Source of the DNA: Labrys wisconsinensis
GTDB taxonomy: Bacteria; Pseudomonadota; Alphaproteobacteria; Rhizobiales; Labraceae
Direction: 5' to 3'
Length of the DNA: 64,000 nucleotides
Assembly: GCF_030814995.1 (NCBI RefSeq)
Contig: NZ_JAUSVX010000004.1
Span: 186,001-250,000, forward strand
Made by a program: the position numbers and the translations under genes
Shown: positions 9,303 to 12,186 of the stretch, piece by piece
Numbering within the stretch: the first letter of the stretch is position 1
Layout: every line of letters starts with the position of its first letter
Notes under the pieces: model-generated
The model's database searches: none
The model's input: only the letters and a program-made list of their open reading frames with translations
What the model was told of the DNA's origin: nothing

Positions 9303-10829
9303 TCAGCGGCGCAGCCGCATCCCCAGGGCCTTGAACAGGACCAGCGCCGCCAGGCCGTAGACGGCGCCGCCGGCCAGCCCCACCAGCACGAGCTTGGCCG
9401 GCTCGCGCAACTGCCGCGACACGCCGGCGACGTAAGGGTCGGCCAGGGCCTCGGCCAGCACCATGGCGGCGCCCATCAGCGCCGTGGCGACGGTGAGCCC
9501 GCCCAGGGCGTTGAGCAGGCGCCGGTCGGGCACCATCCGGCCGCTGCGCACGGCCAGGACCATCAGGATGCCGAGATTGACCCAGGCGCCGATCGAGGTC
9601 GCCAGCGCCAGCCCGGCCTGCTGCAGCGGCCCCATCAGCACGATCTTGAAGCCGACATTGACGGCGATCGCCGTGAGCGAGGCCCAGAGCGGCGTCGCCG
9701 TGTCGCCGCGGGCATAGAAGCTGGCGACGGCGGAGCGGATCAGCACGATTGCCGGCAGGCCGACGCCATAGGCCAGCAGCGCCGCCCCGGCCGCCTCGGC
9801 CGAGGCGCTGGTGAAGGCGCCACGGGCGAAGAAGGCTTGCATGATCAGTTCGGGCACGGTGAGGAAGGCGGCGAAGAACGGCGCGGCCATGAACCAGATC
9901 AGCAGCATGGCCCGGTTCTGGGCCGCATGGGCCTTGTCCGGCTCGCCGGCGGCGATGAAGCGGCTCATCTCGGGCAGCAGCACGGTGCCCGCGGCGATGG
10001 CGATGACGCCGTAGGGGAGCTGGTAGATGCGGTCGGCATAGAACAGCGAGGACACCGCGCCGGAGGGCAGCGTCGAGGCGATGATGGTGTCGGCGAACAT
10101 GGCGATCTGCACGCCCATCGAGCCGATCAGCGCCGGTCCGAGGCTGCGGAAGAAGCGCCGCAGCTCCGGATCGAGGCGGATCGCCCGCAGGCGGGCGAGC
10201 AGGCGGGCGCGCCGGGCGGCCCACCAGACCACGCCGAGCTGCGCCGCGCCCGAGATCGTGACGCCCCAGGCCACCGCGTGGGCGGGGGACGGGAAGAGGG
10301 GCGCGGCCAGAAGGGCTGCGATCCACACCAGGTTGAGCAGGATCGGCGCCGCCGCGAAGGCGGTGAAGCGGCCGGCGGCGTTGAGCACGGCGCCGTACAG
10401 CGTCGCCAGCGTGATCAGCGGCAGGTAGGGGAAGGTGATGCGGGTGAGGGTCACCGCGAGGTCGAACTGGCCCGCCTCGTTGCCGAAGCCCGGGGCGAGC
10501 ACCGAGACCACCTGCGGCATGAACAGGATGGCGGCGAGCGTGACGGCCAGCGTCGAGACGAGCAGCAGCGAGGCAATCCGGCCCTGGAACTCGGCCGCGG
10601 CGGATCTGCCCGCCTGCTCCTCGATTCTCGTATAGGCCGGCACGAAGCTGTTGCTGAAGGCGCCTTCGCCGAAGATCGCCCGGAAATTGTTGGGCAGGCG
10701 GAAGGCGACGACGAAGGCGTCGGCCATCGGTCCAGTGCCGAGGATCGCCGCCGTGAACACATCGCGGGCAAAGCCGGTGACGCGCGAGACCAGCGTCCAG
10801 GCACCGACGGACAGGATTTTCTTCAGCAA
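9303..10829 (-). CDS. murJ: Lipid II flippase MurJ (MviN)
   Basis: The 508-residue protein is a polytopic membrane protein of the MOP superfamily that flips lipid II across the inner membrane for peptidoglycan synthesis. It begins with the diagnostic LKKILSVGAWTLVSRVTGFARDVFTAAILGTGPMADAF, followed by RLPNNFRAIFGEGAFSNSFVP, and has about 14 hydrophobic segments. The family's ARG-type region with FYARGDTATPL is near residue 370. The start appears to be TTG, as no in-frame ATG or GTG lies nearby and the first residues already match the family start. It is transcribed toward the amidase gene, 20 bp away, so the two converge. Confidence 0.95.
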   Translation of the reverse strand: MLKKILSVGAWTLVSRVTGFARDVFTAAILGTGPMADAFVVAFRLPNNFRAIFGEGAFSNSFVPAYTRIEEQAGRSAAAEFQGRIASLLLVSTLAVTLAAILFMPQVVSVLAPGFGNEAGQFDLAVTLTRITFPYLPLITLATLYGAVLNAAGRFTAFAAAPILLNLVWIAALLAAPLFPSPAHAVAWGVTISGAAQLGVVWWAARRARLLARLRAIRLDPELRRFFRSLGPALIGSMGVQIAMFADTIIASTLPSGAVSSLFYADRIYQLPYGVIAIAAGTVLLPEMSRFIAAGEPDKAHAAQNRAMLLIWFMAAPFFAAFLTVPELIMQAFFARGAFTSASAEAAGAALLAYGVGLPAIVLIRSAVASFYARGDTATPLWASLTAIAVNVGFKIVLMGPLQQAGLALATSIGAWVNLGILMVLAVRSGRMVPDRRLLNALGGLTVATALMGAAMVLAEALADPYVAGVSRQLREPAKLVLVGLAGGAVYGLAALVLFKALGMRLRR

Positions 10830-10891
10830 GACGGGGTTCCGGCGACCATGGGCTGGTCATACCAGCCACCATCGCGTTCGCGAAGGGCCGG

Positions 10892-10988
10892 AAAAGAAAG
10901 AGGCCGCAGCTTGCGCTGCGGCCCAAGTCTAGGGAGGAAACGCCCAAGGAGGGCTGTCAGACGGGGAACAGGTCCGCGCCATCTGACG
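10892..10988 (-). ncRNA. Candidate trans-acting small RNA with CCUCCC motif and intrinsic terminator
   Basis: Reading the reverse strand, about 97 nt fold into three elements. First, a 5' hairpin with perfect arms GTCAGA (10987-10982) and TCTGAC (10961-10956). Second, a small GCCC-TCCTT-GGGC hairpin (10954-10942), followed by unpaired GTTTCCTCCCTAGAC. Third, a perfect 9-bp terminator stem, GGCCGCAGC/GCTGCGGCC with a 4-nt loop (10923-10902), followed by TCTTTCTTTTCC. The exposed CCUCCC and UCCUU could pair with Shine-Dalgarno sequences, as in several alphaproteobacterial regulatory RNAs. No gene on this strand ends here: sodB stops 366 nt earlier with its own hairpin. The identity with any named RNA family is not claimed. 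Confidence 0.6.
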
Positions 10989-10994
10989 AGGTTT

Positions 10995-11022
10995 AATTTA
11001 GTGTGCGACGCACAATAAACAA
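10995..11022 (-). promoter_or_regulatory. Promoter-like sequence for the small RNA, with palindrome in the spacer
   Basis: On the reverse strand a -35-like TTGTTT (11022-11017) and a -10-like TAAATT (11000-10995) are 16 bp apart, which would start transcription near 10988, exactly at the first hairpin of the RNA. The spacer holds a near-perfect palindrome, TGTGCG-N-CGCACA on the forward strand (11002-11014), a plausible repressor site. The spot is notably AT-rich for this genome. Confidence 0.45.
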
Positions 11023-11300
11023 TTGCCAATATTGCATGGCTGCCATTCGACATATGCAGATTTTGGGGAGCGTTTGTGCAGGTTGAACCGGTCCACCGCA
11101 AGCTGCTCTGCGGTTGCGGCATGGGGCGCCTCTCGCACCCTGAAATGGGCGGCTTCGAGCCCGGCAAGCTTCTTCGCACTTGCAGCAAAAGTCGCCTCCG
11201 CGGTGCCCTCGGCGGTGAAAAAACCGCTCGCCGTCGCGGCATTTTTTGCAGGTGCGGAGGGAAGACGGCGGAGGTTGCGCTTTGCGGCCGGCGGCTGCGG

Positions 11301-11354: not shown

Positions 11355-11954
11355 TCACTTCACCGCGGCGTCGTAGAGCTCGGCGACGTGGTCCCAGTTC
11401 ACCAGGCTGTCGACGAAGGCCTTGAGATAGTCGGGGCGGCGGTTGCGGTAGTCGATGTAGTAGGAGTGCTCCCAGACGTCGACGCCGAGGATCGGGGTCG
11501 CGCCGTGCACCAGCGGGTTCTCGCCGTTGGGGGTCTTGGACACGATCACCTTGCCGTCCTTGACCGCCAGCCAGGCCCAGCCGGAGCCGAACTGCGTCAC
11601 GCCGGCCTGGATGAACTCTTCCTTGGCCTTCTCTACCGAGCCCAGGCCGTCGACGATGGCCTTCTCCAGCTTGCCCGGGATGCTGCCGCCGCCGTGCGGC
11701 TTCATCCACTTCCAGAAATGGATGTGGTTGTAGTGCTGGCCGGCATTGTTGAACACGCCGGGATTCTTGCCATGGGAGCCCTTGACGACCTCCTCCAGGC
11801 TCTTGCCTTCCCACTCCGTGCCTTTGATCAGGTTGTTGAGGTTGTTGACATAGGCGAGGTGGTGCTTGTCGTGGTGGAACTCGAGCGTCTCCTTCGACAT
11901 GGTCGGGCCGAGAGCGTCATGGGCGTAGGGCAGGTCGGGCAGGGTGAAGGACAT
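11355..11954 (-). CDS. sodB: Superoxide dismutase, Fe/Mn type
   Basis: The 199-residue enzyme converts superoxide to peroxide and oxygen in the cytoplasm. Metal ligands are visible in order: His in TLEFHHDKHHLAYV (about residue 27), His in NNAGQHYNHIHFW (about 74), and Asp and His in LGVDVWEHSYY (about 157 and 161). GQHYNH with the downstream FGSGWAWL is common among rhizobial enzymes, and the choice of Fe or Mn cannot be fixed from these residues. The ATG at 11954 is the family start (MSFTLPDLPYAHDAL). No signal peptide. It stands alone with its own hairpin. Confidence 0.96.
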   Translation of the reverse strand: MSFTLPDLPYAHDALGPTMSKETLEFHHDKHHLAYVNNLNNLIKGTEWEGKSLEEVVKGSHGKNPGVFNNAGQHYNHIHFWKWMKPHGGGSIPGKLEKAIVDGLGSVEKAKEEFIQAGVTQFGSGWAWLAVKDGKVIVSKTPNGENPLVHGATPILGVDVWEHSYYIDYRNRRPDYLKAFVDSLVNWDHVAELYDAAVK

Positions 11955-12186
11955 GGCGTTCCTCTGATTCCTCGGGTGGACACGCCCCGGACGGGGGTGA
12001 GGGGGAGGCGGCCGAGCCGCCATCCTCCTGACAATTAGGCCGACCCCGCCTCCGGTTCAACCGCCAGCCTGGCGATATGTGAATTCTCCCGCTCATCCAC
12101 GGCGAGGATGTGAAATGGGGTCCGCCGCGCGCTTCCGGCCGCGCCGGCGTTCCCGATCTGATCGCAGGAAGCGGATAAAAGAATAG

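Follow-up and report, generated by a model that had tools for sequence, protein, structure and literature searches.

The window analysed here, a 64-kb stretch of the Labrys wisconsinensis genome, has a gap between sodB and murJ which raises a question: does the gap hold a small RNA gene of its own, and if it does, to which family does the RNA belong, what controls it and on which mRNAs does it act? The earlier note, made from the letters alone, had placed there on the reverse strand a promoter-like pair, a 5' stem, an unpaired CCUCCC and a terminator stem with a U-run; all of these are present where it put them (Table 1), and its remark that no protein gene ends at the element was borne out as well, since no protein gene starts or ends within it, sodB lying upstream and murJ downstream. 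Judged from its sequence, the element is a real sRNA gene and a member of the MmgR/αr8 family.

Table 1. Positions in the window of mmgR, its parts, its control elements and its neighbours
Feature	Position	Strand	Description or basis
mmgR (αr8, RF00519) sRNA, predicted ~97 nt	10892..10988	(-)	Rfam match + 5' extension
5' stem-loop, 9-bp outer stem + GGA/TCC inner stem	10956..10987	(-)	predicted fold
GCCCUCCUUGGGC hairpin (GCCC/GGGC)	10942..10954	(-)	paired in Rfam consensus
anti-Shine-Dalgarno seed UUUCCUCCCU, αr8 10-mer, unpaired	10931..10940	(-)	fold + family alignment
intrinsic terminator, 10-bp GC-rich stem, 4-nt loop, U-rich tail	10891..10924	(-)	terminator scan
promoter	10995..11022	(-)	-35-like TTGTTT 11022-11017; -10-like TAAATT 11000-10995; 16-bp spacer
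predicted PhaR (AniA) operator TTATTGTGCGTCGCACACTAA	10998..11018	.	consensus match, promoter spacer
CAGCCATGC element, possible second regulator site	11034..11042	(-)	genus conservation; upstream of promoter
sodB	11355-11954	same strand as mmgR	upstream neighbour
murJ	9303-10829	same strand as mmgR	downstream neighbour

Family identity of the sRNA

The Rfam/Infernal search that had been proposed as a check was run over the 64-kb window, and RF00519 was the sole Rfam family above its cut-off, with a score of 68.6 bits (cut-off 41) and with model positions 1-77 of 77 covered. RF00519 bears the Rfam name suhB and the description 'Makes More Granules Regulator RNA (mmgR)', and it is the αr8 family. 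The match itself spans 10887-10961 and is far above chance because its E-value is 4.8e-12 over the whole 64 kb; the 5' end of the gene was taken further, to ~10988, on the conserved 5' hairpin and the homology of the promoter. The features of the family were all found, namely a GCCC-loop-GGGC hairpin, the single-stranded UUUCCUCCCU that follows it and a Rho-independent terminator at the 3' end. Because the full-length match lies above the cut-off, the sRNA is not undescribed, as the earlier note had supposed, and belongs to a characterised family, while the idea of an independent sRNA gene holds, the element having a promoter and a terminator of its own in addition to the full-length RF00519 match. 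BjrC68 (RF02353), which has a terminator hairpin similar to that of this mmgR, was rejected because its score of 28.2 bits does not reach the cut-off of 39, and NmsRb, ar7 and the other weak Rfam matches were each below cut-off. On its Rfam match and its position, the element is a chromosomal orthologue of mmgR, an αr8 trans-acting sRNA, by which an already-described family gains a syntenic copy.

Structure and candidate targets of the RNA

The region 10885-10990 folds at -48.1 kcal/mol, as compared to -34.3 kcal/mol in dinucleotide shuffles (z = -4.4), and none of the 200 shuffles was as stable. In the outer 5' stem, all nine pairs are kept across the five same-genus orthologues, and at pairs 1 and 5 both bases have changed, A-T replacing G-C. 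In a family-wide RNAalifold analysis of covariation in the 5' hairpin, the copies align too loosely by sequence in that part and only the GCCC hairpin is left in the consensus; the pair count within the genus was used in its place. The first position of the Rfam model falls within the 3' arm of the 5' hairpin. When the first 36 nt were compared with mononucleotide shuffles in 68 dereplicated family copies, 65 of the 68 (96%) had z < -1, with a mean z of -3.2 and a varying sequence. The GCCCUCCUUGGGC hairpin is paired in 66-68 of the 68 copies, and UUUCCUCCC is invariant in 68/68 when the copies are anchored on TTTCCTCC. No base of the seed UUUCCUCCCU is paired when the 97-nt RNA is folded, and in the MFE and centroid folds of 10885-10990 the seed is unpaired save for its first two C's. 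The terminator stem, at 10924-10901, is followed by the tail CTTTCTTTTC.

The unpaired CCUCCC had been read as the mark of a regulator of ribosome binding, and this reading agrees with an anti-Shine-Dalgarno seed like that of a Caulobacter sibling, SisA, whose anti-Shine-Dalgarno 10-mer is proven to pair with an mRNA leader (PMC12559287). We infer the expression, the Hfq binding and the targets of mmgR in this organism, and the targets remain inferred because phasins are not outstanding in duplex energies: by seed duplex energy, the phasin starts rank 14-22 of 34 in a comparison with 33 rough gene calls of the window, which is about the average of gene starts, and on these ranks phasin mRNAs are not supported as outstanding base-pairing targets. 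For S. meliloti, too, direct pairing with phasin mRNAs is still to be proven (PMC12559287). There is a little less than an even prospect that this is a true αr8 sRNA whose main targets are other than phasins, with a broad repression of transporter and catabolic genes in the manner of SisA and possibly with control by a sponge RNA. The seed is generic, the phasin ribosome-binding sites do not stand out, and SisA uses the identical 10-mer to repress TonB-dependent receptors and other targets (PMC12559287); against this, the PhaR-type operator would tie mmgR expression to polyhydroxybutyrate (PHB), and PhaP1 and PhaP2 protein is raised in the S. meliloti mutant (PMC8401924).

The neighbouring gene was also considered as a target. 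The sodB translation start GAGGAATCAGAGGAACGCCATG (window 11355-11990, (-)) is complementary to the mmgR seed over a long stretch with bulges. By seed duplex, the sodB start ranks second of 33 in the window, at -22.8 kcal/mol. When 25 sodB genes from the order were compared, the seed pairing had a mean z of -0.8 against shuffles, with a z of -0.4 for the sodB of the window, and sodB mRNA was rejected as a conserved cis-linked target because the pairing across the 25 genes is only slightly better than in shuffles. The mean z of -0.8 is about the expectation for a Shine-Dalgarno site alone.

Promoter, predicted PhaR operator and the proposed PHB circuit

A sigma-70 scan gave no hit above threshold for the mmgR promoter, which is weak as compared to the E. 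coli consensus. The two hexamers are conserved in position at four same-genus loci and occupy the place of CTTGAC...CATATT in other families. The S. meliloti mmgR start follows the end of its PhaR site by 13 nt (PMC12542648), and this distance, applied to the window, puts the start at about 10985, which independently supports the earlier placing of the start near 10988, at the first stem.

The palindrome TGTGCGTCGCACA sits in the spacer between the -35 and -10 boxes and fits the known binding site of PhaR, the storage-polymer regulator. The PhaR (AniA) protein of S. meliloti binds the 21-bp consensus WNWDDNYGCRNYGCRNHHWNW, and the S. meliloti mmgR site CAATTGTGCACCGCAGCATTA gives an efficient EMSA shift, mutated palindromes abolishing the shifts (PMC12542648). 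The site TTATTGTGCGTCGCACACTAA fits WNWDDNYGCRNYGCRNHHWNW at every position and is the only match in the 64-kb window. In the whole 8.93 Mb genome, WNWDDNYGCRNYGCRNHHWNW matches at 18 palindromic places, one of which lies between two tandem phasin genes, and the control, the consensus read backwards, matches at 29 places; since the reversed pattern is not lower, these genome-wide counts are no evidence, and the conserved position is decisive. The PhaR-type core, with the pattern YGCRNYGCR, was found in the promoters of 69 of the 81 family copies sampled from the order, against 1.2 expected from shuffles, and this figure means conservation and not independent events because the 81 copies are mutually related. 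Of the 81 copies, 61 carry a core in the spacer region between -35 and -10 and 46 carry one close to the start, 38 copies having both, and the mmgR copy of the window has the spacer site only. The full fit to the PhaR/AniA consensus and the core in 69/81 promoters give weight to the previous suggestion that the palindrome predicts control.

It is improbable that a regulator other than PhaR binds the spacer palindrome. NtrC too acts on S. meliloti mmgR (PMC7143759), and a review links the control to a dyad within the -35/-10 boxes (PMC8401924), but the 21-bp PhaR consensus fits here at all positions, the equivalent S. meliloti site binds PhaR in EMSA and loses it on mutation (PMC12542648), and a PhaR is encoded in the genome.

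One PhaR (157 bits) is found in the genome, which also encodes the PHB synthase PhaC and Hfq, and there are four phasin-family stretches. Paired PhaR-type cores, spaced 23 and 18 bp, stand upstream of two of the phasin genes and resemble the paired PhaR sites reported for phaP1 and phaP2 of S. meliloti (PMC12542648). At L117/L118 (G000:C13:30967-31886), tandem phasin-family genes have between them a PhaR-type palindrome pair 18 bp apart. In S. meliloti, PhaR represses mmgR, and the mmgR mutant over-accumulates PHB together with PhaP1 and PhaP2, the mRNAs of which are unchanged (PMC8401924).

In the circuit that we propose, PhaR bound in the promoter spacer, at the palindrome, would block mmgR transcription, and PhaR would repress both the phasins and the sRNA limiting them. 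Accumulation of PHB would draw PhaR to the granules and free the mmgR promoter, and the freed promoter would give an Hfq-bound RNA of ~97 nt, of which the unpaired UUUCCUCCCU would pair with Shine-Dalgarno regions and limit the translation of phasin and probably other metabolic mRNAs. In this way PHB would release phasins and sRNA together, and the sRNA would then cap phasin synthesis. It is highly probable that the locus encodes an Hfq-dependent, anti-Shine-Dalgarno orthologue of mmgR which is repressed by PhaR until PHB accumulates and which then limits the translation of phasin, and probably of other, mRNAs.

Locus, copies and distribution

The MurJ assignment (TIGR01695) is above cut-off, and the product of sodB is an iron/manganese-type superoxide dismutase, whose best match, NF007832, is under its equivalog cut-off. 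That the element is merely the intrinsic terminator of sodB joined to the leader of murJ, with no independent start, is very improbable, because although sodB and murJ share a strand and murJ follows the terminator after about 60 nt, RF00519 is matched at full length, the promoter, the operator and the 5' hairpin are conserved, paralogues exist elsewhere in the genome, and about 330 bp separate sodB from the mmgR promoter.

Three RF00519 copies are above cut-off in the genome (68.6, 58.7 and 44.3 bits), and the four other same-genus genomes have two copies each. In each of these four, the highest-scoring copy is flanked by the sodB and murJ orthologues (loci L042-L045). The third copy, L003 (G000:C14:100708-100778), at 44.3 bits, is diverged, has a promoter without the PhaR core and is the sole such copy among the five genomes of the genus. 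The second copies of three relatives (L008, L009 and L010) have no PhaR core and carry instead the exact palindrome TTTCGCACTTGCGAAA, which has one mismatch in the fourth relative (L011), is rare in these genomes, and lies about 87 bp upstream of TTTCCTCC and about 40 bp ahead of the probable start; it is absent from the syntenic second copy (L002) of the window genome.

The RF00519 family has at least one match in 131 of the 149 sampled genomes of the order. The CAGCCATGC element is conserved in the genus and is found at a similar distance in 19 of the 81 family copies when one mismatch is allowed, with 21 hits in one 20-bp bin as compared to 0-4 in the other bins; in four relatives (loci L004-L007) it forms one arm of GCATGGCT-N8-AGCCATGC. 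The αr8 paralogues of the genus might be divided between regulators, the sodB-linked copy with the PhaR operator and CAGCCATGC and the second copy with TTTCGCACTTGCGAAA, a tentative reading that we consider rather unlikely; were it true, a single anti-Shine-Dalgarno seed would serve two different signals.

Comparison with known systems

The presence of the PhaR-type core in 69/81 copies suggests that the link between PhaR and mmgR described in S. meliloti is a general one across the order, often with two sites, and given such generality, PHB-sensing control of an anti-Shine-Dalgarno sRNA would be a testable ancestral trait. The locus adds a syntenic αr8 member in a genus outside the characterised examples, and the picture of the family is unchanged.

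The MmgR of S. meliloti (αr8, 77 nt) has the same body CCCUCCUUGGG-GUUUCCUCCCUAGACUU, a 5' hairpin and an intrinsic terminator, and its PhaR site is also placed between the -35 and -10 boxes at about an equal distance from the start. It differs in being present in one genome copy, as compared to three here, and in the sequence of its 5' hairpin, as seen by comparison with the Ensifer locus L057; the transcript is predicted at ~97 nt here, against 77 nt in S. meliloti, because the 5' hairpin and the terminator stem are longer here. SisA-SisD of Caulobacter crescentus (αr8) belong to the same family, share the anti-Shine-Dalgarno 10-mer and are multi-copy too. Their promoters, by contrast with those bearing the PhaR-type core, have no common motif reported, SisA is nearly constitutive (PMC12559287), and the SisA system includes the CrfA sponge.
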